Shown: positions 30,835 through 64,000 of the stretch, one piece after another
Position numbering within the stretch: the stretch's first letter is position 1
How the letters are laid out: the number at the start of each line of letters is the position of its first letter
Position numbers and translations under genes: made by a program
Notes under the pieces: model-generated
What the model was told of the DNA's origin: nothing
The model's input: only the letters and a program-made list of their open reading frames with translations
Database searches by the model: none
NCBI GenBank assembly: GCA_030295235.1
Contig: AP026131.1
Coordinates: 1,302,001 to 1,366,000, forward strand
DNA: 64,000 bases
Source of the DNA: Fistulifera solaris
Taxonomy: Eukaryota; Bacillariophyta; Bacillariophyceae; Naviculales; Stauroneidaceae
Direction: 5' to 3'

Positions 30835-30917
30835 TATTCTCTAGTACGGCACTTATTCATTCTATAGTGCAACTTGTGTTTTTCGGTCCATTCTATCATC
30901 CTCGATCCATCTTTTGT
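30785..30917 (+). repeat. source copy of dispersed 3'-end repeat
   Basis: About 133 bp, covering the final 16 codons of the dihydrouridine synthase gene and its immediate 3' flank, recur at 35356-35494 in the same orientation with scattered substitutions. Shared landmarks are GGGAATGGCAAG, CTTATTCATTCTATAG and CCTCGATCCATCTTTTGT. Confidence 0.85.
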
Positions 30918-34389: not shown

Positions 34390-34505
34390 CCAACAAGGAT
34401 AATTACATAGGAATGAACCAAATTTATATTTAGGAGATAAAACGTGATTAAAAACCGGATGTTTGTTGATACAGTTCTGTAGGAGTTCAACGTTATCGGT
34501 AAAAA

Positions 34506-34940: not shown

Positions 34941-34974
34941 CTTTCTTCTTTTGGTTTTGTGCTAGGTTCTATCA

Positions 34975-35200
34975 AAAGTGCACAAACGCAAAACGAAACG
35001 AAAGCGGAAAAAGCACAAACGCAAAACGGAAGTAAAAAGAGCACAAACGCAAAACGGAAGACTCAGAAACGTCGCATTCGAAATTCGAAAACCAAGGAAA
35101 CGTCACTCTAGAACAACCAATGAGAACAAAGAAAAGAACATAAAGAACAAAAGAAATGTGGAATGAGAACAAAGCAAAGAACACAAAGAACAAAGGAACG
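34975..35200. repeat. short tandem repeats, CACAAACGCAAAACG and GAACAAAG units
   Basis: Three copies of a unit containing GCACAAACGCAAAACG, separated by about 35 and 29 bp, are followed by two copies of a ~50-bp A-rich unit (GAGAACAAAG...GAACA...AAGAACAAA). No start codon or domain suggests coding. The units are strongly purine-biased on the plus strand. Confidence 0.7.
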
Positions 35201-35357
35201 TCAAATCCGTGATTTGGACACCCGGGAGCGCGTTACGTTACGTGACACACACACACACGGACACAGCGCGCTATTATAAATAGATTACTTCCTTATTTCC
35301 TAAAGTCAGAATGTAAAAACCTGCTTACCTTGTACATGGACCTGTGCCACTCTCCAC

Positions 35358-35405
35358 AAAGATTTGGCGCGGGAATGGCAAGCGGATCGCAAAGCCGCCC
35401 TGTAA
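35358..35405 (+). pseudogene. dispersed fragment of the DUS C-terminus
   Basis: These 16 codons read KDLAREWQADRKAAL and stop, against KDLVREWQADRHATL in the intact gene at 30787-30834. No upstream dihydrouridine synthase sequence is present, so it is a 3'-end fragment. The match continues ~90 bp into the 3' flank (to 35494). The fragment overlaps the 3' end of the cysteine-rich gene on the other strand. Confidence 0.85.
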
Positions 35406-35438
35406 TTCTGGGAAGTACTTGTACTATACTTATTCATT

Positions 35439-36503
35439 CTATAGAGCAACTTGTGCTTTTCGGTACATTCTTTCATCCTCGATCCATCTTTTGTGTCGTG
35501 GGTGTCGAAGATGGCCTCTTTGCAATTCGTGACTTTGTTGGGCCACCATACAACCTGCCGCTAACAATCGCACCGACTGGATTCCTCGCCACAACGTCCA
35601 GGCAATTTGAAAACACGCCCGACTCGCCCGGCGACCATTCTGACTGCACTCTTGTCCCCCAGCACTGTCCACGGCACAACAACCCACACAAAACGAACAG
35701 ATGCGCAGACAGCACGCGATTTGGAAACAGTGGTGCATCAGGTTCCCAAAGAATGCCGCACATTTTTCTTGTCGAATTTCCGTGTCATCTTGACCCAAAT
35801 GGTATTCTTCTCGTACCATTCGACGCGTGACGTTATGGGCACAGCAGATACTTTGGAGTCCACCCAAACAGGTCACCTCGAGACACAAAAAGAGGTGGGG
35901 ACAATTTTGTTCCCCGTACGTTCCGGCATGAATCGTAATGGGTGCAGAAGGGCATTGTCGGGCGCAACACTGTGGTCCATCGTGATAGCCCTGCCATAAT
36001 TTGTATTGGGTCATATCCCCCCGCAACGCTTGATACCGTGCCATCCATTGACCGCCGCACGGACAGAGTGTGGCAAAACAACACAAGGCCGGCTTTGTGG
36101 TGGATGCTTGTAACATGGTAATACTCCAACCACCTCCCGGACCTTGCGATTGCTGTTCATTTTCCGGTTGTGGTGAAAAACAAAAAATGCAAGGAAAAGC
36201 AAGAGGACTGCCCAAACACCAAATGGCGTCGGCGCAATATTCGACTGCGGGGCTGGTGTGGTGACAAACGCGTCAGAATCGAGACAACATCCAGCGTATT
36301 TAACAACAAGGACTCACCTGATGGCCTCTAAACCATCCGCGCACATTCCAAAGGCCGGATCCAAACCTTAACGACGGAACGAAAGATTTCAGTTCACAGA
36401 GAAGTGAGAAAACGAATCGAACGAAAGGATGATTCGTACCGCAACCATTTTTCCAGCATTCACAACAATTCTTGTCCACGATACCGCTCACAAATTGCGA
36501 CAT
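35439..36503 (-). CDS. conserved cysteine-rich protein, three exons
   Basis: Exons: 36503-36440, 36366-36318 and 36252-35439, with GT-AG introns of 73 and 65 nt; about 308 residues. Phases fit at both joins. Exon 1 begins MSQFVSGIVDKNCCECWKNG. The main body is cysteine-rich and highly structured: CCFATLCPCGGQWMARYQAL, LWQGYHDGPQCCARQCP, HAGTYGEQNCPHLFLCLEV, CCAHNVTRRMVREEY and RQEKCAAFFGNLMHHCFQ. This pattern is one I associate with a conserved but unnamed protein family of stramenopiles and other protists. Cys clusters around hydrophobic patches suggest metal or lipid contact, or a PLAC8-like membrane role; unproven. The last ~18 residues (KRWIEDERMYRKAQVAL) are encoded by the antisense strand of the duplicated DUS 3' flank, so the C-terminus was probably acquired with that duplication. 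Confidence 0.72.
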
Positions 36504-45131: not shown

Positions 45132-46947
45132 ATGAAAATCACAACTTTGGCAACCTCTCTCCTTCTGGCAAGTGTGCTAGCTCCCAATCAAGCATCTCGG
45201 GTCGACGAGGTGCTTCCTCATTCGTGCTCGCTCGCTTCTCACGGCTGTTGAGCTCGGAAACGGAGCGCAGCTTAGTGTCAACATCAACTCACCAGCAACT
45301 GGCTCGTCAGTTGTAGTTGACGATGCATGTGCTGCCTCCACATCGTTCGACGGGTCTGCTAGTGTCGGTAAAGGCACTCCCGATGTCACATACATCTTTG
45401 TCATCGATCAGTCCGGTAGCACTTCTAATATTATTGCAGGCATCAGGACCTTCTTTAATGAACTCACAGATGTGGTGTTCAGCGAGGGTTCTGCACTCAA
45501 CGCTGGTGTCGTGCGATTTTCGGGCAGCGCCGTCCGATTGCCAGCGCTGACCAGCAGTATCACTGATATCAAAGCGGAGATCAACAAGGCAGTAGCAGGT
45601 GGATCCACTAATTGTGGTGATGCACTCCTCAAGGCCCGCGAACTTGCTGCTACAAGCACGGCTGCCACCACTATTGTTTTGTTTGCCGGGGATGGTTTCT
45701 GCGATTCATCCAATGATGCTATTGCACAAGCGAATGCACTTGCCGCTTTGACAAACACCAATGTGATCATCGAAACTATCGCAATCAACATTGGATGTGC
45801 TGGCGATCTCGGGACTAACATTCCACGAAACGGTGGTAGCTGTAAGGCCGTCACCAGTGTCAATGATTTCGACATCACGACCGTCATCGGGACCACACTC
45901 AAGAACGTTGCGTACAACCTCAATGCGGGCGCATTTGCAAGTCTCGCCACTTCTCCCAGCGGCGACATTGCCGGTCCAGCCACCAAGACCTTCTTGCAAG
46001 CCATCCCGATCAACTTGGGCCCGAATGATCTATGCGTAAAAGCGACCGGAAGCGACGAAGTCGGCCAGCAAGATGTTGACGTCTTGGAATGCATTTCCAT
46101 CGTCGGAGTTGACGCATCCGCACCAACCATCACGTGTCCAGCAAACATTGTCACAGCTACTGATGCAGGAGTTTGCGAGTCATCCGTGGCAACAGGATCG
46201 GCGACGGCGGTTGACAATTGTAGCAGCGGTTTGAGTCCACAGGCAAGTGCAAGTGGTCCCTTTCCTCTTGGCATCAGCACAGTCACTTTCAGCGTCGTCG
46301 ATGCTTCTGGTAACGGTGCGAGCTGTGATATCAGCGTCGAAATCTTTGACGGTGAAGCGCCGATCCTCTCGTGTCCCGCGGACATGACCGTTAGCACGGA
46401 TGCCGGCATTTGCACGGCGACCATCGAGATCCCCGTCGCTACCGTGACCGACAACTGTGATCAAGGATTGACTCCCAGTACCACCGCAGTCAATCCCTTC
46501 GCGCTCGGAAGCACCACCGTCGAGTACACTGTCGCCGATATCGCAGGAAACACCGACGCTTGCACCTTTGCTGTCGTCGTTGAAGACAACGAAGTCCCCA
46601 CGGCAACTTGTTCGCCGGCAAACAATCCTGGCGGCAATGTCCCGAAGGCAAACAACCAAGATGGATTCTTCGTTTTGGGTGGCGAAGACAATTGCAGCGT
46701 TGCAAGTTATCAAGTTGTTGACTCGGGTTCTGGACACACGTTTGGCCCTTTCCCATCTGGAACTGTTTTCAAGTACACCGAAGCCCCAGGCGCGACACCC
46801 TCGGAGAAGATCGGAACAGGCGACGTCGATTACTTCCTCAAGGGTCAAGGAGACGCGTACGTTCTCGTGACGGACGGTTCCGGAAATACGGCGACGGCGC
46901 CTTGTTTGGTTCCCCCGAAACCTTCTCGTCTCCTTCGAGGCATCTAA
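45132..46947 (+). CDS. secreted VWA and HYR domain protein
   Basis: This product has about 590 residues: signal peptide, VWA domain, then two HYR domains. The N-terminus (MKITTLATSLLLASVLAPNQ) reads from 45132 in one frame and the rest in the next. A 43-nt GT-AG intron (45210-45252) joins SRVDE to LGNGAQLSV and fixes this, though it is short, so a base error is an alternative. The VWA domain has the MIDAS motif DQSGSTS and a Thr/Ser-rich second half. Two HYR repeats follow: SAPTITCPANIVTATDAGV and EAPILSCPADMTVSTDAGI, each ~80 residues. Such proteins mediate adhesion or extracellular binding. The tail ends LVPPKPSRLLRGI. Its 3' UTR (from 46930) is repeated at 55113-55265. Confidence 0.85.
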
Positions 46948-47150
46948 ATACCGACATCATCAACAAAAGAATGCGATAATACCCTTCTTTGCGTGAAAAT
47001 ACATGTGATACGTGATCTGCATGAAAATGAAACGGAAGCCGAAAACAGTCGAAACGGTAGAATCAATCATACGTGATCCGCATGATAATGAAACGGAAGC
47101 CGAAACAGTCGAGACGTAGAATCAATCATAGCTTCCCTGTATACAATCTC
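46930..47150 (+). repeat. 3' flank repeat, copy A
   Basis: The end and 3' flank of the VWA/HYR gene include two tandem near-copies of CGTGATCTGCATGAAAATGA...GAAACGGAAGCCGAAA, at about 47008 and 47071. The stretch is repeated as a shorter version at 55113-55265, starting with GCGAGGCATCTAWATACCGAC. Confidence 0.85.
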
Positions 47151-47688
47151 TAAATAAAACAATTCAACCATGATTCTTTTCTCTGATCTACCATCTCATG
47201 CGCTGGCTTCCTTTCTTCTTCTTGAAAGTATTTGTCGTTTGGAGGCGAGGTCAGTTGTGTTGATTACACTGGTGAATAACGGTTGTGGGTTGTGGGCCAC
47301 TGCAATCTCGTTTTGTTGTGTACTGGTATGGACAGTGAAGGGGGAAATTCCAGCTCGCGGATGACTGAGGGAAACGGTTCACGGATTGCTGATACAGTGT
47401 TGTACAATTTGTACAGCTATTCGTCACGTCCAGAATTAAGGACAAAAGAGAGTACTTCAGAAACCAGATAATCCAGATCGTGTTTTCGCAAGTTCTCGCA
47501 CAAAATCACAAGGTCGTCCTCCTTCTTCTTCTACGACCGTTTGGACGAATCTCTTTTCCAAAGATTCATGCAAGATGCACATCTCACAAAAACGCATTTT
47601 TGATCCGGTAAAACCGATCGCCGAAGCTGGCTCATTTTTTTTCGTTTCGCCCTCCGTCACGAAACAAACATCACCGAATTTCTTCACC
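47151..47688. other. intergenic region
   Basis: About 540 bp between the VWA/HYR gene and the nuclease gene, both on the plus strand. No gene is seen. It contains the presumed nuclease promoter. Confidence 0.35.
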
Positions 47689-50245
47689 ATGAAGCTTTGC
47701 ATTTTCCTGTCCCTTTTTTTTGCTGTCGCAACAAAGGTACGAACACGTTCGACGCTTTCCTTCGATGTGAATCACCTGAATCCTAACTTTATTCGTTTCC
47801 TTCAAGGCTGAGCTCATCTTGACGGGAGCCATGGATGGTCCTCTGAGCGGAGGAAATCCCAAGTTCGTCGAGTTATTTGCCACCGCTAGTATCGCAGACC
47901 TCAGCATCTACAGCATCGAAGTGGCGTTCAATGGGGCCGCCGCGAGCGGAACGCCGCAATACACCTTTCCCACAGATTCCGTCGCACAGGGGACGTACAT
48001 TTACGTGGCATCTTCCGCCAACAGCGGAGAAGCCGGTTTCCTCGCCTACTTCGGTTGCCCTCACGATTATCTCACGTCCGCTTCGTTCAGCAATGGCGAT
48101 GATGTCTACTTATTACGCAAGAACGGAGCCGTGATGGATGCGATCGGTGAGGTGGGTGTCGATGGAACGGGTCAGCCGTGGGAGTACTTGGATGGATGGA
48201 TCAAGCGTGAAAATGTGAGCACTGCATCGACACCTTCTGCCACGTTCAATGTCGCTGATTGGACTCTGAGTGGTATCAACGCTTTGGATACGTGCACCGT
48301 GACCAACGCTTTGTGCACATCCATTTATAACTTTCAAAAGGCCAGCTGCACGCCCGTTGAAGAGGAAGAACCTGCAACGACAACCCTTATTTCGGCCATT
48401 CAAGGGAGTGGCGCGTCAACGCCTCTCAATAATGTTGTCGTGAAAATCCAAGGAATTGTTGTGGGTGACTTTCAGGACGGCGATAGTGACACCAAGCGAA
48501 ACTTGGCGGGCTTTTTTGTTCAAGAAGAAGATTCGGACAGCGATAGTGACCCACTCACATCGGAAGGTATCTTCGTTTACGATCCTACTTTGCTGACCGA
48601 CGTGAGTGTTGGTGATGAAGTGGAAGTGGTTGGAACCGCCAGCGAAGCATTCGGTAACACGCAAATCAAAGATGTCACTCGTATTACCATCGTTTCGAGC
48701 GGAAACACTCTTCCAACTCCAGCCACAATCACTCTACCTCTCGCTGCTTCGAATGGAAACAATCCCGACCTTGAACCGTTCGAAGGTATGCTTGTGACTG
48801 TCACGAACAAGTTGCTGATCACTGAGATGTTTCAATTGGATCGTTTTAACGAAATCAAACTCGCCACGGAACGTTTCTACCAGTACTCGCAGCAGAATGT
48901 TCCCGACGTTCAAGGAAACGCCGATTATTTGGATCTTGTCTACCGCAGTACCATCACCTACGACGACGGTTTGACGACACAAAACAGTGACATTCGTCTT
49001 TTGGATGGCTTCCAAAATTGGCCCGCCACACCGATTCGTATGGGAGACAGTGTCACATCCTTGACCGGTGTTTTGTACTATTCCTTCTCCTTGTATCGCA
49101 TCCTCAGTACGGCCGATGGAACCGTGTCCTTTGTGAGCGAAAATCCTCGTCCTCCCGCTCCCTCGATCCAAGGAGACGTCAAGATCGTCACACTCAATGT
49201 ACTGAACTTCTTTACGACGTTGGATATCGGTAGTGCCGAAACCTCGAACGGAAACGATCCTCGTGGCGCCGACAGTCAGGCCGAGTTTGATCGTCAATTA
49301 CAAAAGCTGGTGACGAGTCTTTTACAAACGAACGGTGACATTTTCGCCTTGATCGAAATCGAAAATGACTTTTTGGCCGGATCTCCCGGTAATGCGTTGG
49401 AGTTCTTGACCAATGCATTGAATAGCGCGACTGCGGCTGGAACGTACGATTGGGTCGATCCTGGTCAACAGTTCGTCGATGGCAGTGATGCCATCTCTAA
49501 CGGATTCATTTACAAGACGAGTGTGGTGTCGATTGAAGGTGTCGCTATTTTGAATGACGCGGTCGTCGCGACGCTCGACAGCACTTTGTTGACGGAAGAT
49601 GCGACCATTTTTGACGGCCCGAATACCAACCGCGCCGCTCTGGCGGCGACCTTTGTCGTGGGTCCCCCGAAGAACTGCATTACGATTGCCAACAATCACT
49701 TCAAATCGAAAGGAGGTACCGGAACCGGTGCGAATGCCGATCAAAATGACGGTGCCGCCAGTTTCAACAATCGTCGCTTACTGGCGGCAAAAGCCTTGGA
49801 TCTGTGGCTTGAGACGGATCCGACCGGTGTGGCTTGTGAGAACATTGCCATTGTGGGCGATTTGAATTCGTACGTCAAGGAAGATCCCATTCGGTATTTG
49901 ACCGACACGACGTTCAACCCCAACGCAAATTTCCGCGATATTTTCGATGCTCCCGAAAATCAGTACAGTTACGTCTTTGATGGCATGATCGGAACGCTCG
50001 ATTACGTTTTGGTGAATGATGCCTTGTCGGAATTGGTCGTAGACGCTCAAAAGTGGCACATTAATGAAGACGAGCCCGATGCGTTGGATTACAATTTGGA
50101 TTTTGGACGTCTCGCAACGTATTTCGTCGGAACCAATGCGGCGCGGAATTCGGATCACAGTCCCGTGTTGATGGGAATTGATTTCACGCCCCCGCGTCGT
50201 AGAAATGGATTCTGTCCTCCCTCGTTTGCGAATAGTCGAATGTAA
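47689..50245 (+). CDS. secreted LTD/OB/EEP extracellular nuclease, two exons
   Basis: Exon 1 (47689-47736) encodes a signal peptide MKLCIFLSLFFAVATK. After a 70-nt GT-AG intron, exon 2 (47807-50245) completes 828 residues. The order is a lamin-tail-like domain (ILTGAMDGPLSGGNPKFVEL; ~residues 20-180), an OB-fold-like section (~195-430, IQGIVVGDFQDGDSD), and an endonuclease/exonuclease/phosphatase domain (~445-808). EEP motifs: VKIVTLNVLNFF, DIFALIEIEN, NNHFKSKGGTGTGA, VGDLNSYVKEDPI and the terminal NSDHSPVLMGID. This resembles bacterial ExeM/NucH extracellular DNases. It probably degrades external DNA or RNA, for nutrient (phosphate) scavenging or matrix turnover. It is the parent of the truncated copy at 55380. 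Confidence 0.9.
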
Positions 50246-50692
50246 ATAGAGTAATGAATGAATGCATCATGAAATAAATACAGTAGATTTCATCAAAATG
50301 CGTGCTGCGATGATTTTTTTCTTTTCATTTTTGCGGGCGAGCTTCAGCGACTGCTGGCGTACAGACGCCTGTAACGCAACTAATTACGTAGTAATAATTG
50401 TTAGGGTTCGAGTATACCTGCCGTACGTCACGTGTCAACTGACAGACTGACAAACGCAAGAAGAGGCGCAGCACGCAGCATTTTTTCTCCACCGCGCATT
50501 TTTCATTTCCCCATCCTAACATTCATTCGTCGTTTTAAAATCATTGTAACATCTTTATAAGACTACGCATTCGTCAATAGCGCCAGATTCTCTATTGAGA
50601 AGTTCTTGTGCGTCCTGTCTCGTTTTGGGATCTCATAATTGATCTTTTTCCGGTGATATTTCTACCTTGTCTTTCGACCTGCTTGTGAAACA
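50246..50692. other. intergenic region, uninterrupted copy
   Basis: About 450 bp between the nuclease stop and the AlkB-like start. The matching gap in the second copy is 431 bp once the copia element is removed. The stretch around 50476-50500 (ACGCAGCATTTTTTCTCCACC) shows the sequence of the site before the copia insertion. Confidence 0.7.
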
Positions 50693-51776
50693 ATGACAGA
50701 AGCTTTCGTCGGTCGATCCGTTGCTGTCAATGCACAGCAGCCCCAACGGTCATTCTCGACCAAAAAGAAACGATTTCGAGGAGGAAAACAGCCAAAAATC
50801 CCACAACAACAGCAGCAACAACCATCGCACAACGACGACCCGATTACTCCTCACATTTCCGATCCTCGCAATAAAGACACGACAAACGATCAACGTTTGA
50901 CGACGAAAGCGACGAAACGAGGGAATGGTCGCAATACCGAATCGTTTGATCCTTCCAGTACGCTGGTACGTCCGGCCTTGCGGATTAAGGTCGGCTCGGC
51001 GGCGGTGAAACAATTCACACCGCCGCTGCGTCACGACGATGTCGTCATTGTGCCGGAACTCTTTGGTCCCGAAGAGAATTGGGATCTGTATCATCAGCTC
51101 TTGAAGGAAATGAAAGATCGTAAAGATTGGACGTCCTGGCACGAAGGAGCGCATCTCATTGTGAAACATCCCGATCCATCTCCGACCTTTCAAAAGGTCG
51201 TACAGACCTTGTGTGAGTACTTTCAGATTCAACCGGCCGGAGTCCGGTTCAACTGGTACAAGGATAGTTCCGACTGGAAACCCTTTCATCACGATTCGGC
51301 GGCCTTTAACCCGCAACGCGCGAAGACGCAAAACATTACCGTCGGTGCGAGCTTTGGGGCGTGTCGGGAATTGGCCTTTCTCTTAGCTTCTGAGGATAAA
51401 AACACACCCAATGACACGCGAATCTATTTTCCGCAACCCAACAACGGTGTCTTTTCGTTTGGTCGGGATGTCAATATTCGATGGAAACACGGCATTAATG
51501 CCGTGCAGGAGAAAATCGGAGCAAGGACGGATCAGTATCATTGTGTGGGGACTCGCACAAAATGTGATTGAAGAAGAGGATTCGCCCGCACTGTTGGGTT
51601 CCGATGGCCAAGGACCTCATGCGGCGAAGCAGAAGAATCATCATCGGGGAAATGACAAGAAGAATGGGCGTCGCAACCAGCATCACAACAAGAAAATAAT
51701 TCCGGACGATAAGACTGCTAACATTCCTCAAAAAGAAACCAGCAGCCCCGCGGTCGACAAAGAAAACAAACCTTAG
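50693..51776 (+). CDS. AlkB-like 2-oxoglutarate/Fe(II) dioxygenase; one frame break
   Basis: About 360 residues after one base is removed at the A4 run 51512-51515 (adding two bases would also work). Residues 1-~105 are Gln/Lys/Asn-rich and disordered. The catalytic part has the expected order: FNWYKDSSDWKPFHHDSAAF with the HxD metal pair, FPQPNNGVFSFGRDV, WKHGINAV with the distal His, and RISIIVWG with the 2-oxoglutarate-binding Arg. Family enzymes repair or modify alkylated nucleic acids; some act on RNA or other substrates. The last ~85 residues are Lys/Asn/His-rich. A near-identical gene starts at 63373 (second copy of a duplicated block). The first frame alone reads to 51571, losing the arginine motif. 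Confidence 0.85.
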
Positions 51777-51821
51777 TAATCAATAATAATACAAATAATA
51801 CTAGTTTGCAATTAATTACTG

Positions 51822-52157
51822 TTACAAGGGCTGTTTGCTACCAGCCAGCGTGAGTATTTGTATCATCCGCGAGGATTCTTGCTCCAGACAATGATGGTGC
51901 TGTGTTCCGTACTCGTGGGCCGCTTTCAACAGTAGAAAAGCTTCTTCATCGTCCCACGGGAGGGGAACAAAGTGATCGATCCAGTACCAGCACTGGATGG
52001 CAAACGTGGCTTCCTGCGGACGTTCTTGCACTCGTTGCAGACTTTGTTGAATGGCTCGTTCCAAGTGACATTCAGGGGGTATCGGACCATAGCTGAGGCC
52101 TTGTCTGGAGCCTACAACAGGCCAAAGAGAAGGACGGCTCCATATTTTGTGTTGCAA
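51822..52157 (-). CDS. unknown small protein, uncertain
   Basis: A 111-residue open frame on the minus strand, convergent with the AlkB-like gene. It has a composition compatible with coding (Trp/Tyr in WYWIDHFVPLPWDDEEAF; Glu/Gln-rich helices), and a helix-like segment, ERAIQQSLQRVQERPQE. I recognise no family. It may be the last exon of a gene or a decayed fragment, since no continuation was found upstream. Confidence 0.35.
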   Translation of the reverse strand: MQHKIWSRPSLWPVVGSRQGLSYGPIPPECHLERAIQQSLQRVQERPQEATFAIQCWYWIDHFVPLPWDDEEAFLLLKAAHEYGTQHHHCLEQESSRMIQILTLAGSKQPL

Positions 52158-53246
52158 AAGTCTGGGAAAACGCTTGATGAAATCTGCATGGTTGGGATGC
52201 GTACCAGTACTTGGCTCCGGTTATTCGGATGCCTTAACTTCCTAGACCTAGTAGACTATGCTTCTATTCAAGATATGTGCTTGAGCGGTACTGTAAAGCA
52301 TTAGAATACAATTTACAATGCACGTCAACGATTCAGACTTCAATCTTGAGAAAAAGTGAGGAACAAGCGAACAGTATTCTTTTATTATTTTTTAATAATT
52401 ATTTATTTTTTTATTAAAAAACGAACCCACATCCCACATCCACATCATGGTATGAACTTGAGCGGTAAAGTATTGTAGTTAGTATTATGATGCACTTCAA
52501 CAATTCGGATTCCTGTTTTGAGAAAAAAATGAAGAACAAGTGAACAAGAACAAAGTAATAAGGTCAATATTCTTTACAGGTATTTGATCGGGGATCGGGG
52601 CGTTTTCCTGATGGCTTCGGTTCTCGAAAAATGAGGGCGTCGCATGTCGCATCGTCGTCGGTCGTCGTACAGTGTGACAAAGCATTCTAGAAAACGCTAT
52701 GGCAAAGTTTATTTATTGCTATTGAAGACTTGAGTTCAAAGTTCAAAGCTCTTTATCCGACACCATGCATCTTTTATCTTTTCGCTCAACGAGAAGCGAA
52801 CCAAAGAAGGGAACGCGAACACTATTATCTGAAAAGTGAGCCTAAATGGAACACCGGAACATCAGAGTGCGGGTGGCATAAATACTTGGTAATGGAACAC
52901 CAGAACATCTGAGTGCGGGTGGCATAAAATACGAATGATGTAGATAGAGTTTTTCTCTCGGCGTCCGGCGTCCGGCGTCCTGCTTCCGGGTGCTAAGACA
53001 AGCGTACTTGTACCTGTAACCGTTCACAAATTAAGCCTCAAGTCCTTACAAAGATTCGCATCACAAAAAGATTGATTCCCAGTTTATGGAAGCCAAAAGC
53101 AACTCATTCGAAAGCGAATTATCAGTGGTCGTTGTGTTGCTCATAATATTCATTTCGGTAACCACCAGCAATCAAAATCAAGAAAAGGTACGACATTGAA
53201 AGCATTGCTGACCTTACACATCCCCTTTGCTCACAACCATGCTCTT
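52158..53246. other. AT-rich region with local duplications
   Basis: No supported gene. It contains a direct repeat of about 100 bp (52280-52380 and 52457-52552), an AT-rich tract at 52378-52425, two tandem copies of a 46-bp unit at 52845-52929 (AATGGAACACCRGAACATC...GTGGCATAAA), and a CGGCGTC triplet at 52959-52980. An alternative 5' exon for the next gene begins at an ATG at 53087 (a hydrophobic leader ending ...NQNQEK before GTACG). Confidence 0.5.
52280..52552 (+). repeat. direct duplication, ~100 bp units
   Basis: Two diverged copies of a ~100 bp segment, both beginning CTTGAGCGGTA and containing CAAC(G/A)ATTC(A/G)GA and GAG...AACAAG, are separated by a poly-A/T tract. Function unknown; they look like a local duplication. 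Confidence 0.7.
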
Positions 53247-55051
53247 ATGTCCTTCGTCGAAGCTACTATGAAAGCCACTACCATCAAGTCCAAGTCGTTG
53301 ATCCCCATCGGAGCTTTGGCGTTTCTCACAGCCATCCTGTGGTTCAACGCGAACCAGCAATCTCGACCATATTTCACAGCGCCACGCACGCTTGCGTTTT
53401 TCCCAGCAGCAAAGATTTGCAAATGCAATCGTGTTTTTCGCAAACATTGCCCTCCAGAAGTCGATGAGCCTAACGTCATCATCGAGGAATTCAGACAAAG
53501 CGTCCCTGCTATCACTCTTCAAGTCATGCCCATCAAATTATTTGATGTCATCGCTGAAGACTCTCCCAACGGTTTTGTCCCCGGCCGGATGGTGATTGAG
53601 ACTGGCGAACAGGAAATTGAAGCAAACGAATACGGTGCAATGCACTTTACAGGATACTTTGAGCCAGAAGACGGGAGTCCCATTGAAGAGGGCGCGATTG
53701 CGAAAATCTACCTCAGCGATGGGTCTTCGTTCACCGCCTCGATTGATCAGTTCGATGGATACTTTCAGTTCGATGTAACAAGTGTCCAACCCGGACGGGC
53801 ACCAGCCCTTATAACCTTTCCGAGAACCGTACCTAGCGGTAATTCAAGAGCTCTGGAACGAAATGTCAAAGCATCTTTTCAACGCCAACTTGTTGACGAC
53901 GGATCTTGGCTCAAGACTCCCGCTCCTGTATGGTGTAACAATCGGGCAGACTGTCCTGCTGATTTGAGCTTCACGCTCACATGGAACACACCAACCAGCG
54001 ACCTTGACCTTCACGTGTTCGAAGGAGAACCAAGCGGGGATCATGTTTACTATGTGCAACAATCTGGCGAGTATGGTGTCCTCGACTGGGACGATACGGA
54101 GGGATATGGACCTGAAAACTATTTTGCAACGAACGCTCCTCCCGAAACCTCGTTCGTGGCAGCTGTCCACTGCTTTTCCGAAGACGAAGATGTTCTGCCT
54201 CAAAGTTTCGAATTAGTGGCGCGTGTTGGAGGGGAGCATCTGTGGACCGAAAGAGGTCAGATTGAACAGTGCGCACTAAGCAATGGTAACTTTTGGACTG
54301 ACCAAGGAGACTGGTCTGCCAAATATAGCATCACAGCTACGGATAGTGGTGCTGTATGTCGCAAGTGCCATCACGACGATATTGATGTGCAGCGCCAATC
54401 ACCTCCTTCGCCTTCGGAGACATCGCCTAAGCAGACCAATCAAGTGCGGCGCAAACTCGAAACCTTTGACGACAGCCCTCCCAAATGTGAGAGCTGTCTA
54501 GATCGGTATTCAGGATATTTCGAATGGCGATCCGAAACCGAAGAATGGAAGCTGTACCGAGACTTACAGGCGGCGAAAAACAGTAGATCATTGGACAGTG
54601 ATACCGTTGCGTTCTGGTACACAACGCTCATGACTCCTTTGGCCACTAGTGCAGGCACGCCGTTGTCTTTCTTTCGACTGCGCAAGTACATTACCGACCA
54701 ACGCTTGGAACGTGACCAGCTGCAATGTGCGATGTACTACATTATGGAGACTTTTTGCCGCGCCAGATCTTTGAAAAAGTCGACCGAGTTCATTGCTGCC
54801 TTGCGCCGTGTTGTTACCTACCAGGTTTACATGGAACTTTTGGTTTCTCCTGCTTTGAATACCATGGAAAAATTGAGCTAAAATTGGCTGAGATCTTTGC
54901 AGAAGAGTTTGTAGAAGAAAATTTTCCAGAAGGATTCTCTCTAAGTTCGACCGAAGTGATTGTCAATGCGTATTCAAAAATTTTTGCAAGCTACTTTCTC
55001 TTCACAAACCTCGAAATCAATCTAATTTGGAGTTGCGACTTTTCCAATTAA
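53247..55051 (+). CDS. DUF2135/YfaP-like membrane protein; one frame break
   Basis: About 601 residues with one missing base at the A5 run 54868-54872, where the frame from 53247 would stop early; the alternative frame carries on as KLAEIFAEEFVEENFPEGFS to a stop at 55051. Residues ~10-30 (SLIPIGALAFLTAILWFNA) form a signal-anchor segment. The middle (~residues 235-330) resembles DUF2135/YfaP, with LTWNTPTSDLDLHVFEGEP and VLDWDDTEGYGPENYF. A CxxC-type pair (VCRKCHHDD, KCESCLDRY) lies at residues ~370-420. The C-terminus is helical. Function is unknown; YfaP-like domains occur in secreted or surface proteins. I use the ATG at 53247; an upstream in-frame stretch lacks an ATG, and a separate 5' exon is possible. 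Confidence 0.65.
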
Positions 55052-55112
55052 GTAACACTGGTTACTGTCTGAAAAGGTCACAGAGAGAGACGTGGTCTTA
55101 ACAAGCGACTCT

Positions 55113-55265
55113 TCGCTCCGGCGAGGCATCTATATACCGACTTCATCAACAAGCGAATGCGATGAAACCCTTATTTGCGTGAGAAATACATGTGATACGT
55201 GATCTGCATGAGAATGAAACGGAAGCCGAAACAGTCGAAATGGTAGACTCAATCATAGCTTCCCT
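55113..55265 (+). repeat. 3' flank repeat, copy B
   Basis: This matches 46930-47150 (GCGAGGCATCTATATACCGAC, ATACATGTGATACGTGATCTG, GAAACGGAAGCCGAAACAG), with one internal unit fewer. It marks the left part of the second copy of the block, just before the truncated nuclease gene. Confidence 0.85.
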
Positions 55266-55379
55266 TTACATAAAGCGATTCTTTTCAAACAGTTTTTCTT
55301 CTTTATGTCGAGCGCAACATAGCAGGATTTTCCTTACAAGAAAAAATGCGGAGAGACATAGTGACCCACCCACAATCAG

Positions 55380-56130
55380 AGTTTCCAATGGATTCGTTGA
55401 CAAGACGAGTGTGGTCGAAGTGGAAGGTGTCGCGATTCTAAATGACGCCGTCGTTGCCACACTCGATAGCACCTTGTTGACGGAAGATCCGACCATCTTT
55501 GATGGCCCCAGTACCAAACGTGCCGCTTTGGCGGCGACCTTTGTCATTCAGAAGAATTGCCTCACGATCGCCAACAATCACTTCAAATCGAAAGGAGGTA
55601 CCGGAACCGGCGCGAATGCCGATCAAAATGACGGTGCAGCTAGTTTCAACAATCGTCGCTTACTGGCGGCAAAAGCCTTGGATCTGTGGCTCACCACGGA
55701 TCCGACCGGTGTGGCTTGTGAGAACATTGCCATTGTGGGCGATTTGAATTCGTACGTCAAGGAAGATCCCATTCGGTATTTGACCGACACGACGTTCAAT
55801 CCCAACGCGAATTTCCGCGATATTTTCGATGCTCCCGAAAATCAGTACAGTTACGTCTTTGATGGCATGATCGGAACGCTCGATTACGTTTTGGTGAATG
55901 ATGCCTTGTCGGAATTGGTCGTCGACGCTCAAAAGTGGCACATTAATGAAGACGAACCCGATGCGTTGGATTACAATTTGGATTTTGGACGTCTCGCGAC
56001 GTATTTTGACGGCTCAAATGCGGCGCGGAATTCGGATCACAGTCCCGTGTTGATGGGAATCGATTTCACGCCCCCGCGTCGTAGAAATGGATTATGTCCT
56101 CCCTCGTTTGCGAATAATAATCGTTCGTAA
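55380..56130 (+). pseudogene. truncated copy of the EEP nuclease
   Basis: About 750 bp match the last ~250 codons of the nuclease at 47689-50245 at high identity, from NGFVDKTSVVEVEGVAILND to the stop at 56130. The signal peptide, LTD and OB parts and the front half of the EEP domain (including the ALIEIEN glutamate motif) are gone. The catalytic GDLNSY and SDHSPV motifs and the NNHFKSKG motif remain. The open frame continues upstream to 55192 through the repeated 3' flank, giving a chimeric N-terminus (MIRDLHENETEAETVEMVDS) with no signal peptide. I would not expect a working enzyme, and no promoter was identified; it could be transcribed as a chimera. Confidence 0.88.
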
Positions 56131-56338
56131 CTAGAGTAATGAATGAATGCATCATGAAATAAATACAGTAGATTTCGTCAAAATGCGTGCTGCGATCTGC
56201 GATGATTTTTTCTTTCATTTTTTTCGGGCGGAGCTTTGACGACTGGCGTCCAGACGCAACTAACAGAAATGATTAGGGTTCGAGTGTAATTACCCCTTGA
56301 CCCTTTTGATAACACGCAGCATTTTTTCTCTCTCTTTT
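56131..56338. other. 3' flank of the truncated nuclease copy
   Basis: Matches the sequence after 50245 (GTAATGAATGAATGCATCATGAAATAAA; AAAATGCGTGCTGCGAT) up to about ACACGCAGCATTTTTTCTC at 56312-56330, where the left copia LTR begins a few bases later. Confidence 0.8.
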
Positions 56339-56522
56339 TGATAAAAACGTAGTGAATCGATTGAATTGCAAACAAACAAAATTATAAAGTTAACGTGCGT
56401 TACATCGCTGGTTCCGCGAGGGTCTTTTCAGTCTTTCAAACCTTCGCTTCGCCCGTTTATGTCGGCACCCGGCTAACCCCAATCCTTAGGATAGCCCGTG
56501 ATCGGCACACCACATTTTGACA
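56339..56522 (-). repeat. LTR (3' LTR relative to transcription)
   Basis: The left long terminal repeat, beginning TGATAAAAACGTAGTG and ending CACACCACATTTTGACA on the plus strand. It differs from the right copy by one A, one C and one C indel, and one G/A substitution at the end. Confidence 0.95.
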
Positions 56523-56938
56523 CTCCTCTCAAGTAGATCGTTGTGAAGCGGTCAACTTGCAACAAAAGGTGTGTCATTCATTCACATCAAATTTAAGTGG
56601 TTCACACATGCTAATCCACTTGCACACAAGATGGTTCTTCTTCCACACTAGGAAGCTTACTTCCACCTTCACAAAGGGGCACATCTCGGGACCTAGGTTA
56701 TTTTAACCCCGATCGAAAGATATGATGCAACAGATTGCTAACAAATCGAACTCTCTTCTCTCCATGAGGTAGTTGCTTTGTCAACAAATCAGCTTCATTG
56801 TCATGAGTATTCACATAGCACGTTCGCCACTCGCTGCGCTACACCCTCACGAACAAAATGGTACGCAATGCTTTGCGATTTCTTTTCAAAGTCGAATCCG
56901 GGATTGTTGTGTTAGCCAACACTGACTGATTGTCTCCT

Positions 56939-57388
56939 TCAATGTAACATGGCCCATCCACAGGTATTCCCATCATACTGAAGCTTGTATCTCAGTCCTC
57001 TGAGGTACTCACAGCACTGTTTCATAGCAACGAACTCGGATCCAAAACTGCTGCTTTCGACACTTGTCTGTTTCTTTGAATGCCAGCACACAAGCGCCAT
57101 ATTCAAATACACAAGAAAGCCAGTTCGCGATCTCCTGGTCAGAGAGTCTGATGCGTGGTCAGCGTCAACCTTAGCTCGAATAACGAACCCAATCCCGCGT
57201 GGTTCCGGCATGTTCGTCGGTATGGTCTCCTGACCTTGAACATGACCGAATTCACTTGAGGCCCAATCTCTCTCCTGGAACTTAGCCTCATCAACAAAAC
57301 GGTACAGTTGGATCAAATACCATCTCGGCATTATGATACTTCTTGAGATAAGCAAAGATATGCAACACCTGTTCGAAATGTCCTTCAC
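56939..57388 (-). CDS. copia RNase H domain
   Basis: The last part of the pol polyprotein, in one frame of 149 residues. It contains the copia RNase H core (DADHASDSLTRRSRTGFLVY, then SKKQTSVESSSFGSEFVAMK and EYLRGLRYKLQYDG), preceded by a linker to RT. The initiating Met is an open-frame start, not a real one, since the protein is made as part of a polyprotein. Confidence 0.85.
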   Translation of the reverse strand: MKDISNRCCISLLISRSIIMPRWYLIQLYRFVDEAKFQERDWASSEFGHVQGQETIPTNMPEPRGIGFVIRAKVDADHASDSLTRRSRTGFLVYLNMALVCWHSKKQTSVESSSFGSEFVAMKQCCEYLRGLRYKLQYDGNTCGWAMLH

Positions 57389-58463
57389 GGCATCGCCATG
57401 AGCGAAGACAAAATCGAAACCTCAAGACAAATGTCGACTCTTCCAAGCTCAACAATCCACCGTAGAACCCCAATCAAAGACATGTAATACGCGGCAAGCG
57501 TTGGATCCAATTCAGGACTTACATCTAGCTCTGATCGATACGAAGTTCGCATTGGCGTGTCTGCTTTTGCGGGAAGATCCCAACGTTCCAACTTTTTGAT
57601 GTACTTTTCAACGTTTGCGACGGCCGCTTGAACATACTGCGATGAAGAGAAAGACCACGCTCGTGCGCCATTTTCTAACTCAACCTTTCGCACACGTCCT
57701 CCAAGATAGATCTTCGGCGGTCCAATCGATTCTTCTTTCAATTCAAAGTACTTGCCGATCTCTTCCCTTAAAAACCCGTTCAGGATTTTCGCTCACACAC
57801 AAAGTATCGTCGGTGTAAAGAAGGATGTATTCGTAGTAGCTAGAGCCATCAGCCTTCTTGGCCGGTCTCATCCAAACATCCGGATCAGCTAAACATGAAG
57901 TGAAACCAAGATCCAACATGCCAGAACGCCAAGTGGTTCCGGAAATCTCTCCCAGCCGATTTTCCGCCGTACAAGGCGCGATGTATTAGTGCCACACGAC
58001 CAACATTCTCCAATCCAAACTCGATTCCACAAATGACATAGTGCTTTTGCGAGGAAGGCGCCTGCAAATAGGGCGTTCGCGAATATCAGCAGCACAGATG
58101 TCAACACCATTAAGAGCAGCATACGTGAAAGCAATTCTGACGCTTTCCCTGGAGACAACACCAGCATAGGTGGATCCAATAGGGTCAGCAGTCTTATGCC
58201 CGTCCAGAACCCATCGAGCCTTCCGAGTAAAGTCCATCTTCACATCAAAGACAAGATGTCCGGTCGCAGGCGTCCACCCAGGTGGTGCTTTCTTTCCTTC
58301 ACCGAGGATCTCAAATGCCACTCAAACGTTGTACATCTCTTTGGCAAATGCATCTCGCCAGAAAGTGTTACCGTTTAAGTTGGTCAATTTTGTGAGGGCG
58401 TCTTACGTCCCTGGGTATCTCGATCCCGTACTTATGCGTGAATGCGTCGAAGTCTCTTCTTGA
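57385..58463 (-). CDS. copia reverse transcriptase region, frame-broken
   Basis: The RT domain is split over frames. Motifs in order on the minus strand: PPGWTPATGHLVFDVKMDFT, KARWVLDGHKT, ADIRNAYLQAPSSQKHYV, ALYGGKSAGRDF, the catalytic YTDD (57806-57817), and PKIYLGGRVRKVELENGARA, then SLIGVLRWIVELGRVDICLE. Each is typical of copia RT. Single-base breaks lie between them. Confidence 0.85.
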
Positions 58464-59256
58464 GCGCACCCAGGATTGCGTTCGCCCTACGAAGTGTAAG
58501 TGGTACCCACCAAGCAACGCCGGTTCATCGTCAATGCCTCGTGCAACCGCAAATTCAGCTGTTTCAACCGGGTGGGAGTCTTTTAGATCCTTAAGGTGGA
58601 CCCACGACTCATTACCATCACGCCATCAAACAAGAAGTTTCCATCCTTGGGTCGTCTTTCGCCAATCGTGTTTCTCCACGACGTGTGACAACACGAGCTT
58701 CACTCTTACTTAGAGCTGTCTCCTCCTTCTTATAGTCGACAATCCCTTCCATGAGGGACTTAGAGAATCCATCGTCGTCGCATTGGGCAATCATGTTCTG
58801 AGCAATCAAATTGGCTGAGTATTCACGAATGACACCATCACCAAACTTCGACGTCGTACACAACAGTGTTCATCGCCGGGTTGTCACTGTATGTGCCAAT
58901 CGTTTGCCCGTCATCACCAATCGTTTAGCCCCGACCCTGGCTGTTTCCATTTCACCGCCATCCTTTTGGAGTTGTACTTCAGCATTAATGATGCGATCGT
59001 AAGCCGGTGCAACATCAAGAAGTACACCATTGGCGTCCACAGCCTCTTCGACATTTGAAAATTCTCTAGGCGTCTCATCACCGTCCTGGTATGGTTCCCA
59101 CTCGTCATTGTCGCTGTCATTGCGTCGATAATCCTTCCGTCGAACTGGTGAGTCAATTGGTGGCGGCGTCATTGCCGTCCCCCATCTCCCTCTCAATGAG
59201 GCCGTCAAAAATTTCTCTTCGACGCTTCTCTGTATCACTGTGGAGCTTGGCAATGG

Positions 59257-60524
59257 TCAGCGAAGCGTACTGTGCGACGAGGAACGACTTCGACCATTCG
59301 CTTTCAGTACCCATTGGGCCATTTCATTCCCAGCGCCCTTTGCCGGTCCAAGAACGCGTCCAAGGATCTCCTTACTGACAGGAAAATCGTTCTTTTGATC
59401 CCGGAAGTATACCCATTCATACCACCCAAATTGACACAGGTTGCTGATATCACCTGTATCACCTGTGACAAGAGTGTAAGGGTTTTGTCCGTGCAGATTA
59501 AAACGATCCCGTGCAGTCATGTTATTGATCCGAGCGCCGCTCCAAGCAGTAGTCCCACAGAGGCATGGGGCTATTCGCCTCCTTCATATCTTTTCGAACA
59601 GCTTCCTTCAACAGTCCAATATAAAGTTCAGCCTTGTTCGACCACGGAGTGTTCTCCTCTAAAGCACGTAATGTCGATCCGATGTCACGACAAAAGCGTC
59701 GCGCCGAGACTCCTGGTTTGTTCGCCGGACGGCGTCACAAATGAATGCATCGGGAGCTCCCACTTCCTTTGCGAATTCCTTCATCGCTTGCAAGACTTCA
59801 CCCTTCGATCTCATCGGTACAACATGCACGAAACCCTTGTCTGACACAAACAGTTGACAACACGTGTGTCCTCGTTCAGACTTGCCTATTTTGGACGTAG
59901 CAAAGAGGGTATCCATGTAGAAGTACTCTTTGATGTGCTTGTAGCGAAGCATGCGATCGTTCGTTCCATAGTTGGCGCCAACTTTGGGTTGTCTTGTCTT
60001 ACTGCGCGTTGATCGGTAACTTCAAGTGTCCGCTCGGCATCTTTGTGTTCAATTCGCCAAACCTTGGACAAGTGTGCAGCATCAACTCCCTGGTGCCTAA
60101 TCCCGTGGGCAGCAGAGACCATGAACTCATCTAACTCGTCTCCTAATTCGGCTCGGGCAAAGTACTCTTCAACTAGATCAACAGTGTCGTCTGCGATTGC
60201 GGCGGCGGGAGCATCAGTTGCATCACCATCATGGTATAGATGTCGCTGAGAGGAAACAGTTGTCGCGCCAATCGCCATAGAAAATTCACCGCATTCGAGA
60301 CACTCCTTCATCCTGGCTAGTAAACTAGAACAGTCGAGTTGTGGCGAGAATGGAAGAAACACGTGCTCTTCATTGGCATCTTCTGTAAAAGTGAACTCTT
60401 TTTCGACGCGGCTCCTCTCCAGACTGCTTATGACAAACGATTCCCTATCGTTGTCTTGCACAGCCGTCATGAGATAGCGAGTCTTTGGTAGAGGCAACAC
60501 CATTTCTCCGTTACAATCCAGCAT
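59257..60524 (-). CDS. copia integrase region, frame-broken
   Basis: Includes the HHCC-like zinc-binding part (AAHGIRHQGVDAAHLSKVW...) and the catalytic core with YFYMDTLFAT and FICDAVRRTN, the first and second aspartates of the DDE triad. The frame is broken between these and the following segment (NPYTLVTGDTGDISNLCQFG, where the capsid-interacting C-terminal part begins). Confirmed as copia by position between protease and RT. Confidence 0.78.
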
Positions 60525-60531
60525 CGCCGCC

Positions 60532-61094
60532 TCATTTATCGCATAGCTGACGTTGTGAGGGTCCCATGCCGTCGGGCGTCAACATATAGATATTCTCCGA
60601 CTGTTGTAGTTGGAGGAGGCTCGGCTTGCTGGTTGGGAAGAAAGAAAACACACCGTGCAAAGAGAGCGGTATCCGTAATCCCGTCTCCTGAAAATAAATC
60701 GCATGATTCTCAACGGTCGGATCCACAGTCTGGATCTTCGGAGTGTCGTCCACAGTGACACCAGCCTCACGCATCACAAAAGGCGGTATCAAGTTGTTGT
60801 TCATATTCGGAACATAAAGTGCATTCCGAACAAGCAAAATGATTTCATCCCCACTGTATGGACACTCGTAGAGCAAAGCTGCATCCACAAGTGAGCACTG
60901 CATCGGCTTGTAGTCTGGTGTGAACGCCAAACATCCACAGTTTCTCCAGTTCTAGCAACCACAAATGCGTTCCACCCGACGACTGGCATATTTGCATGTG
61001 TGTCCAATTCAGTCCTCGAAATCCCTGACGTATCTTGGTCATCAACGTCCATCGCACCGGTGTCCATGACAACAGCACGTGACGATGCAATCAC
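60532..61094 (-). CDS. copia protease region, frame-broken
   Basis: The aspartic protease of the polyprotein, with SRTELDTHANMPVVGWNAFV (the catalytic Asp in LDTHAN, a form seen in CoDi elements), followed by LLVRNALYVPNMNNNLIPPF. It is split over at least two frames. Confidence 0.72.
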
Positions 61095-61303
61095 GCCCTG
61101 TCAGGTAATCGTTCGGTGCGGTATGTCGTCCTCGGTCCCATGTTCGACTGTTCTCCGGCTGTGGCTTCTGACTTACCCTCCAATCATCATTGACTGGAGT
61201 AGTCGCTGCCGCCGGGCCCAGTCAACGAAGGTAACGATGGCTCACAGGACGGCGAGGGCCAGCACGTCGGAGAGCTCGTTCATACGTCTCCCGTTAAGCC
61301 ACC

Positions 61304-62934
61304 TCAGATCCCGCCTTCGCTTCCTCTTCCGCATCCTGCGTTGGTCCCGAGGGAGACTCTTCTTGTGCATCCTTGACCTCGACAGACGACACGTTTCCAC
61401 CCTGAGATGCTGAACCCGTGATCATTTGAAGAAGATTGCGCTTGCTGCTCCACAGCAGAGATCTGCTTGTTTCCACTTGTTTCCGTCGGCGTCGCCTGGC
61501 CACGGCTTTCCAAGTGTTTGTTCACCGCCTTCTCAACTGCAGCTGCTAGCGCCTTGGTCCGCTTGTCCTTCTTCTTCTGCTTCTTAGCTGGGTTCTTGAA
61601 CTCGTCTGGGTTCTTGGCCCGATAGTCCCGCAACTCGTTCCTTTGCTCAACGGTCAGTTTTGCATATTCCTTGTTCGTGTGGTAACGCAAGTGAACTCCA
61701 CTCGACCCGATTCCTTGTTTCGCAGTTGCTCCGGACGACTCAGCATGTACATCAGAGATGGATGCGTTATTTCTCTTGTTTGTCCCCGTCATTATTCTGG
61801 CGTTTTCGCGACGGGATCCTTTGGGAGCAAATAAGCGACCGCATCTTCAAAATTGTGCCTCTTGCCTCCAGGTGCGTCATCATTCTCGATGTGGGCAATT
61901 GCTGCCTGCAACCCCGCATCGTCACAAATGATCTTGCTCAACAGGTCGGTCACTCGCGTATAGCCATCAGGAAGCTGATGAGGTACGTGCTCGGCAGCAG
62001 CAGTCATCTGGATGTAGGCCGTGCGATGCTGCTGGACAAAACTCTCCAACGTAAAGTTTGAATTGCCTTTCCATTCTCTCACGAGCGCAATGATGTCCTT
62101 GTGCTTCGCAATAATGGCGTCCCATTTGTCCTTTCCAGCATACTGCGCCTTGAGTGCCAAGTAAGCTCCTCTTCCGTCCAAAGTTCGTTTAAAAGGGGCA
62201 ATCGGGTCGTGATAAACCGTATTCCGTGTCGCCTCTTCAATCTTGAAATACACCTCCAGCGTTGTCTTCCTTGAAGTTCGATCGGGAATGAGAAGAACGA
62301 TGGATCAAATCCTCCACAATAGATCCATGCTTTTCGGTGTAAGGCTGACTTTGCGCTCGAAGCGGGGCATTCACCGCAACATCAACCGTATCCCGAATCA
62401 CGGCTGCCAAAGGCACAAACCGGGTGCCAATGCACTGATAGCAATGGTCCTTGAAAGACTCAATCCACTTGACAAAAGAGACACCTTTTCCCAACTTGGG
62501 CGCCCCGGGTTGCTCTTTTCTTCTTTTTCGCCTTCAAGGCGTCCCACAGCTCCTGGAAGTTCTTAATAACCGGAGTATACATCATATCCTGCGCCCGTAA
62601 CCGCTCTTCCGATTGTATCATAGAAGTGAAGGAGCTCAATAGCCGCTTCCAATCGAATCTGCGATTTGATGGGGAAGGAAAATGGCTCGCGGGGAATTGT
62701 CGCTCCAGCTGGCGGGCCACCAGCTAATCCTGCATTCGGATCAGGGACACGACCGGTGGGGCGTCGAAGGCTCTCTGCGATGCGCTTCACATCATCCGGC
62801 TTGAATGACAGCAAGTCATCGAATGTAGAGATGCCATCTCTCACCAACTGCTCATGCGTCGCGACCGGAATTCCCATCTGTTCTGCGGCAGTGAAGAACG
62901 CCAAGTGCTGTTGTTGTGTAACCACCATGGTCAC
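61304..62934 (-). CDS. copia gag region, frame-broken
   Basis: The 5' part of the polyprotein, starting at an ATG at 62934 that lies 33 bp inside the 5' LTR. Segments in different frames: MTMVVTQQQHLAFFTAAEQM, NFQELWDALKAKKKK, GVSFVKWIESFKDHC, and YFKIEEATRNTVYHDPIAPF with SNFTLESFVQQHRTAYIQM. The C-terminal part (KNPAKKQKKKDKRTKAL) is basic. This composition fits a copia Gag; no zinc knuckle is certain. Confidence 0.7.
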
Positions 62935-62967
62935 TCGCTGTCAAAGCTAAACTGGGTCTGAATAAAC

Positions 62968-63150
62968 TGATAAAACGTAGTGAATCGATTGAATTGCAAA
63001 CAAACAAAATTATAAAGTTAACGTCGCGTTACATCGCTGGTTCCGCGAGGGTCTTTTCAGTCTTTCAAACCTTCGCTTCGCCGTTTATGTCGGCACCCGG
63101 CTAACCCCAATCCTTAGGATAGCCCGTGATCGGCACACCACATTTTAACA
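62968..63150 (-). repeat. LTR (5' LTR relative to transcription)
   Basis: The right long terminal repeat, the promoter copy for minus-strand transcription. On the plus strand it begins TGATAAAACGTAGTG and ends CACACCACATTTTAACA. The sequence between it and the gag start (GTTTATTCAGACCCAGTTTAG on the minus strand) should hold the primer-binding site; I cannot match it to a tRNA by eye. Confidence 0.95.
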
Positions 63151-63372
63151 TTTTCTCCACCGTTTTCATTCAGTGCTATCCGTCCAGACATTCACTCGTC
63201 GTTTTATAATCATTGTATTCATTGTAGTATTATCTTAAACCTATCAATTTCGTCAATAGCACCGGATTTTCTATTGAGAGCTTATTGCGCGTCTTGTCCT
63301 GTTTTTGTTTCTGGTAGTACACTTTTCCTGTGATTTTCCCTTCCTTGCTTATCAACTTGCGTGTGTGAAACA
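63151..63372. other. 5' flank of second AlkB copy
   Basis: This matches 50490-50692 with moderate divergence (CATTCACTCGTCGTTTTATAAT; TTCGTCAATAGCACCGGATTTTCTATTGAG), and so continues the duplicated block on the far side of the copia element. It should contain the promoter of the AlkB-like copy, now next to the 5' LTR. Confidence 0.8.
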
Positions 63373-64000
63373 ATGACAGAAGCTTTCGTCGGTCGCCCCG
63401 TTGCTGTCAATGCACAGCAGCCCCATCAGTCATCCTCGACCAAGAAGAAACAGTTTCGAGGAGAAAAACAGACAAAGAGTGCACAGCCAAAGAAAACGCC
63501 CCCAGAATCATCGAACGACCCGAACACTCCTCACATTTCCGATCCTCGCAATAAAGACACGACAAACGATCAACGTTTGACGACGAAAGCGACGAAACGA
63601 GGGAATGGTCGCAATACCGAATCGTTTGATCCTTCCAGTACGCTAGTACGTCCGGCCTTGCGGATTATGGTCGGATCTTCCGCGTTGAAACAATTCATAC
63701 AGCCGTTGCGTCATGACGATGTCGTCATTGTACCGGAACTCTTTGGACCCGAAGAGAATTGGGATCTGTATCATCAACTCTTGAAGGAAATGAAAGATCG
63801 CCAGGATTGGACGTCGTGGCACGAAGGAGCGCATCTCATTGTGAAACATCCCGATCCATCTCCGACCTTTCAAAAGGTCGTACAGACCTTGTGTGAGTAC
63901 TTTCAGATTCAACCGGCCGGAGTCCGGTTCAACTGGCACAAGGATAGTTCCGACTGGAAACCCTTTCATCACGATTCGGCGGCCTTTAACCCGCAACGCG
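63373..64000 (+). CDS. AlkB-like dioxygenase, second copy (runs off window)
   Basis: The ATG at 63373 opens a frame to the window edge (209 codons), matching 50693-51320. The N-terminal region differs (TKSAQPKKTPPESSNDPNTP against a Gln-rich stretch), but residues ~55-95 and the catalytic front (GVRFNWHKDSSDWKPFHHD) are near-identical; WY is WH here. The HHD metal pair is present; the distal His and Arg lie beyond the window. No frame break is seen in this part. It is the second gene of the duplicated block and lies just downstream of the copia 5' LTR. Confidence 0.88.
   Translation, partial: MTEAFVGRPVAVNAQQPHQSSSTKKKQFRGEKQTKSAQPKKTPPESSNDPNTPHISDPRNKDTTNDQRLTTKATKRGNGRNTESFDPSSTLVRPALRIMVGSSALKQFIQPLRHDDVVIVPELFGPEENWDLYHQLLKEMKDRQDWTSWHEGAHLIVKHPDPSPTFQKVVQTLCEYFQIQPAGVRFNWHKDSSDWKPFHHDSAAFNPQR

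Follow-up and report, generated by a model that had tools for sequence, protein, structure and literature searches.

The stretch analysed here, which we call the window, comprises 64,000 nucleotides of a Fistulifera solaris contig (C9:1302001-1366000) from an assembly of 51.7 Mb in 61 contigs. Its right-hand part holds a block of ~5.1 kb, made up of the 3' end of an HYR-domain gene, a nuclease gene and an ORF labelled 'AlkB-like', which is present in two copies, A and B. A single block lies on a partner contig, C10. The features are the following:

46384..46947, forward strand: 3' end of the HYR-domain gene ('VWA/HYR'; Pfam HYR, E 1.3e-6, above the cut-off)
46926..52073, forward strand: copy A of the block, with BLAST matches to 55113-64753 and to the C10 block at 16492-21609
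47831..50245, forward strand: ExeM/NucH-type extracellular nuclease, 804-aa frame (NCBIfam NF033681)
50693..51571, forward strand: 292-aa 'AlkB-like' ORF in copy A, taken from the ORF list, family label unconfirmed
51161..52073, forward strand: presumed gene-conversion tract, the youngest in the block, sharing 99.5% identity with ~63841-64752 of copy B, part of which lies past the window end
52074..55112, forward strand: single-copy DNA between A and B, with a 544-aa ORF inside (53247-54881)
55113..56338, forward strand: left part of copy B, the HYR-gene 3' flank joined to the 3' third of the nuclease gene
56339..63150, reverse strand: LTR retrotransposon, probably Copia, with LTRs at 56339-56522 and 62968-63150 and broken frames
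63151..64000 in the window, forward strand: right part of copy B, spacer and 'AlkB-like' ORF, the block ending at ~64753

Of the HYR gene, the last ~22 bases and the 3' flank alone lie inside the block, and the VWA part of its label is putative. The copy A nuclease is of the ExeM/NucH type by its match to NF033681 (E 2.3e-148, 495 bits against a cut-off of 300), with the Pfam domain Exo_endo_phos above and LTD below their cut-offs; its activity is predicted from these profiles. Other homoeologous contigs, C36 and C37, carry a pair of paralogs of this nuclease with 74-75% DNA identity to copy A (L003 and L004). The name 'AlkB-like' found no database support: searches of Pfam, NCBIfam, PHROGs and PDB matched the ORF to no AlkB/2OG-Fe(II) oxygenase family. 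A putative HxD...H pattern in this ORF was read by eye, and the single-sequence fold model of the 292-aa product (pLDDT 37.5) was unusable. The corresponding ORF of copy B starts at 63373 and ends at 64248, past the window.

A direct duplication of the block had been predicted, and self-BLAST of the window bears it out with three collinear matches in direct orientation: 46926-47071 with 55113-55257 (89.8% identity, E 5e-47), 49496-50368 with 55384-56257 (90.6%, E 0) and 50570-51320 with 63249-64000 (89.3%, E 0). Such E-values exclude chance as the source of the matches, and the third extends to 52074/64753 at 94.4% identity once the DNA past the window end is included. The copies are collinear, point the same way and have clear ends, which makes this a segmental, direct duplication; they are not adjacent, and since 3.04 kb of single-copy DNA separates A from B this is not a simple back-to-back tandem. 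In own-genome searches, with simple repeats skipped, no second copy of 52074-55112 was found by DNA, nor any of its 544-aa ORF by protein. Residues 238-324 of this ORF match phrog_1735 (function unknown, E 2.3e-5), its only match in PHROGs; searches of PDB (up to E 1), Pfam (below E 0.2) and NCBIfam returned nothing, and the single-sequence fold prediction reached a pLDDT of 36.0. A dispersed repeat at the VWA end of the block was considered and ruled out, the 146-bp match occurring in three places of the genome (A and B on C9, and C10). At the same end, copy A alone shows in the alignment a ~62-bp unit repeated in tandem (47008-47071 and 47069-47130), against a single unit in B and in C10.

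C10 is collinear with the window at 79-92% identity by aligned block, and the two contigs are presumably homoeologs of the allodiploid F. solaris genome. A guide target listed in PMC13276009 for both homoeologous apt genes of F. solaris has exactly two occurrences in the assembly, one on C38 and one on C39. The C10 block is uninterrupted (16492-21609, counted from C10:1290001), without self-matches of at least 100 bp in the 40 kb of C10 examined, and the interval 52074-55112 is absent from that locus. On C9, the left flank common to C10 continues from copy A and the right flank common to C10 continues from copy B. On C10, both the nuclease gene and the 'AlkB-like' ORF (L009 and L010, C10:1307300-1311100) read as broken frames, and small indels near the 3' ends separate the 'AlkB-like' frames of C9 and C10; either decay or assembly indels may lie behind this.

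Copy B is without ~2.3 kb relative to A. An internal loss of this size, from the VWA 3' flank to the middle of the nuclease gene, had been proposed and was confirmed by self-BLAST and alignment: the A-B match ends within ~200 bases past the stop of the HYR gene and restarts in mid-nuclease at position 49496 of A, with ~100 bases lacking a clear match at the junction. The remaining frame of 296 aa (55240-56130) is open; relative to A, over the part compared, it has lost 6 bases at one place and gained 3 at another. Copy B is probably best described as a nuclease fragment followed by a downstream ORF as open as that of A.

The 6.8-kb element that splits copy B is an LTR retrotransposon by its paired LTRs (184 and 183 bp, differing by one substitution and three gap columns) and by the TTTT that flanks it on both sides, a 4-base target-site duplication. 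Four further near-full-length copies are 87, 93, 95 and 96% identical to it, and 4-base target-site duplications, with flanks read by eye, accompany all five. The LTR pairs of these five copies hold one to six gap columns each and in three of them zero substitutions, a pattern which suggests leftover assembly indels in repeats; such indels being likely, the broken frames of the element and of C10 are weak evidence of decay without reads. An 87% relative on C10 (L021, C10:1342446-1349254) has LTRs that differ by one gap column only. The Copia label of the original prediction is kept with less assurance than its LTR nature, as what points to it is one RVT_2 match in a sister copy (one of nine ORF pieces; E 0.0013 and 18.8 bits, below the Pfam cut-off of 31.6). 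RVT_2 was found in none of the three ORF pieces of the window, one of which also belongs to the set of nine, and no integrase, which in Ty1/Copia elements lies ahead of RVT_2, was found in the ORF pieces searched.

The element is absent from copy A and from C10. Copy A does preserve the pre-insertion site, as had been proposed, and C10 offers a second element-free site. Given this absence and an LTR divergence of 0.55% (1/183 substitutions), the insertion is later than the duplication. The original prediction went further and placed the deletion between these two events, from spacers, measured between the nuclease stop and the start of the 'AlkB-like' ORF, of 448 bp in A and 431 bp in B without the element; ORF coordinates give 447 and 430, but the spacers lie outside the deletion, so that deletion and insertion are not ordered by them, and no datum places the deletion first. 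That copy B could be an assembly artefact, with sequence from the partner chromosome or from a duplicated haplotig joined wrongly into C9, is very improbable. The small gaps in all five LTR pairs do indicate an imperfect assembly, yet copy B reproduces neither of the sequences from which it would have been taken (up to 28% from A and 8-30% from C10, by tract), it runs on into the right flank common to C10, and the element that it harbours has a clean target-site duplication.

A three-way alignment of the two C9 copies with their C10 counterpart (H), with 2487 ungapped columns and 435 variable sites, revealed that divergence changes strongly along the block. By tract, the A-B, A-H and B-H divergences are:

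49496-49690: 17.1, 12.3 and 14.4%
49691-50265: 4.2, 10.3 and 8.4%
50266-50534: 28.4, 36.0 and 29.7% (gappy, less reliable)
50535-50835: 23.5, 24.5 and 11.2%
50836-51160: 6.2, 9.8 and 8.6%
51161-52073: 0.5, 12.2 and 12.0%

Divergence between A and B thus ranges from 23-28% around the spacer down to 0.5% over the final 0.9 kb, where 51161-52073 has 4 differences in 885 compared columns. The permutation tests presuppose a uniform rate over the whole block. Of 10000 permutations none attained the A+B concordant runs of 53 or 34 variable sites, and the B+H runs of 15 and 11 (50601-50671) were attained in 0 and ~2 of them; for A+H there were two 5-site runs (p 0.017), one of them at 49530-49546. The best segments were 51142-52042 for A-B and 50554-50671 for B-H (p 0 of 3000 in either case) and 49530-49567 for A-H (p 0.001). 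Tracts of excess A-B identity inside diverged copies, as found by these permutations, are characteristic of interlocus gene conversion, and an ectopic event of this kind would be the best and simplest explanation for the near-identity of A and B over 51142-52042. The B-H tract, for its part, means one of three things: A is the oldest lineage there, A has changed fast, or B and H have exchanged sequence.

Since divergence runs as a mosaic, A and B are no clean clock. Their use as a dated record, as first envisaged, was not borne out, and a single divergence value was rejected as a date for the duplication (A-B divergence 0.5-28%; dS from 0 to ~0.6). LTR divergence and divergence in the last converted tract are both ~0.5%, and the insertion and the last conversion are not ordered. 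A history of one duplication, one deletion and one insertion, with divergence as its clock, is therefore unlikely: the single LTR substitution in 183 supports well that the insertion followed the duplication, but the strongly heterogeneous A-B divergence and the unordered deletion and insertion do not fit so tidy a sequence.

We are confident, to a high degree, that C9, which belongs to a homoeologous pair, carries here a direct segmental duplication, patchily converted and with a late LTR insertion. In the course of events that we propose, the ~5.1-kb block was duplicated in direct orientation, its copies now standing on C9 with 3.0 kb of single-copy DNA between them; ectopic gene conversion would have evened out A and B patch by patch, the last time over the final 0.9 kb; B lost ~2.3 kb, before or after the insertion; and the LTR element entered B late. 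A further step, for which the odds are about even, would be the collapse of C10 to one block through recombination between A and B.

The evidence on age is mixed, and the odds are about even that the duplication is at least approximately as old as the split between C9 and C10, with a later collapse to one copy on C10. At their most diverged tracts A and B are about as far apart as C9 is from C10. Three sequences have no root and hence yield branch lengths only, but a duplication that took place after the split predicts that H would have the longest branch outside the converted tracts. Instead, in 49496-49690 the branch lengths were 13 for A, 17 for B and 8 for H, H being the shortest (p 0.11 for B against H). 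In 50535-50835 they were 51, 12 and 15, respectively, the H branch falling far below that of A (p 1e-5 for A against H), and in the HYR-gene 3' flank, counted by eye, the B branch looks longest. With the C36/C37 paralogs as outgroup, which exists for the nuclease only, shared derived sites in 49490-49740 numbered 1 for AB, 4 for AH and 6 for BH, A+B being backed in 1 of 11 cases; in 49741-50245 they numbered 5, 0 and 1, respectively. The A-B dS of the left nuclease tract was 0.61 (95% 0.32-1.18), or 0.69 in a two-sequence alignment; values for the eight nearby homoeologous gene pairs measured ranged from 0.24 to 0.56, and the 5' part of the nuclease gave 0.50 between A and H. A duplication preceding the split, followed by A-B recombination on C10, would make B the odd one out at the left end and A at the right, and the best A+C10 segment does lie on the left and the best B+C10 segment on the right, the sides predicted by collapse.

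Other values run the opposite way. Contrary to the collapse prediction, dS in the left tract is 0.34 for B-C10 but 0.48 for A-C10. At the coding start of the 'AlkB-like' ORF (50693-50835), dS was 0.23 for A-B, 0.43 for A-C10 and 0.28 for B-C10, and over 50693-51160 it was 0.22, 0.34 and 0.27, A-B being the closest pair and below all eight homoeolog values, with intervals that overlap and are all wide. Since A and B are closest by dS inside the 5' part of this ORF, the B-H affinity lies mainly upstream of it. Among 30 C9-C10 non-coding windows (median identity 86%), five were as low as A-C10 in 50535-50835 (75.5%), and the B-C10 identity of 88.8% in that tract is ordinary; fast change in A, or B/C10 exchange, could account for the length of the A branch ahead of the ORF. 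The claim of old age relies on short tracts of sequence. That the block was doubled before the parental genomes split, and that one subgenome lost the interval and its ORF through recombination between direct copies, is a reading we put forward tentatively, at somewhat less than an even chance. Similarly short of even, we would place a duplication on C9 after the split of the subgenomes, with C10 unduplicated and the likeness of B to C10 due to homoeolog exchange or to a fast-changing A. Such a duplication requires no loss from C10, which has one block, it accounts for the low A-B dS in the 'AlkB-like' 5' part, and the 3-kb unique interval could be filler gained along with it; it has to contend with the short C10 branches, the outgroup sites of 49490-49740 and the high A-B dS of the left tract.

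A survey of 80 kb of C9, 68 kb of C10 and 20 kb each of C36 and C37 gave four one-sided gaps with a net difference of at least 500 bp. Bracketing repeats were found at one of them (30917-35356), and the A/B locus was missed, its copies lying outside the search pads. That gap was not counted as support for collapse: it holds relatives of C18/C54 sequence and dispersed repeats, so that a gain on C9 is as likely as a loss on C10. Around it, 30785-35494 comprises a C9-only interval of 4.4 kb between 139-bp direct repeats (84% identity), of which C10 has one, and includes an aquaporin-looking ORF of 286 aa (31394-32254), named by eye. Elsewhere in the window, 7205-8065 and 8369-9232 form a 0.87-kb direct duplication with 75.7% identity.

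In short, this is a segmental duplication of an ordinary kind, patchily converted and entered late by a retrotransposon. Its history is not as clean as it was first read to be, and may reach further back. A duplication that has been converted looks cleanly ordered and datable when viewed without its homoeolog and without tract-by-tract comparison. If the older age is true, the locus would be a worked example, in an allodiploid diatom, of a block that one subgenome keeps doubled and the other has reduced to a single copy, and the collapse of direct copies would be one route of gene loss from a single subgenome.

Literature searches on gene conversion in diatoms or Fistulifera, homoeologs and tandem duplication returned no title on this locus among the matches listed, and the terms 'gene conversion' and 'tandem' have no occurrence in the main text of PMC5935921. 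According to the same text, 2441 F. solaris genes are present on one homoeologous chromosome only, and the ORF of the interval described here is likewise confined to one homoeolog, as in such fractionation. The copy A nuclease matches the ExeM/NucH profile (NF033681) at positions 1-545 of 546, whereas copy B retains its C-terminal third only. Diatom Ty1/Copia elements have been classified as CoDi groups, and the Blackbeard insertion is accompanied by a 4-base target-site duplication, TTCC, according to a legend in PMC2806351; the element reported here shares the 4-base duplication, its RVT_2 match being weak. Finally, interlocus gene conversion is known in segmental duplications, for example from PMC4132178 and PMC4467073, where near-identity tracts likewise lie inside diverged paralogous copies. 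The present case differs from those systems in that the host is a diatom and a homoeologous partner serves as the third sequence.
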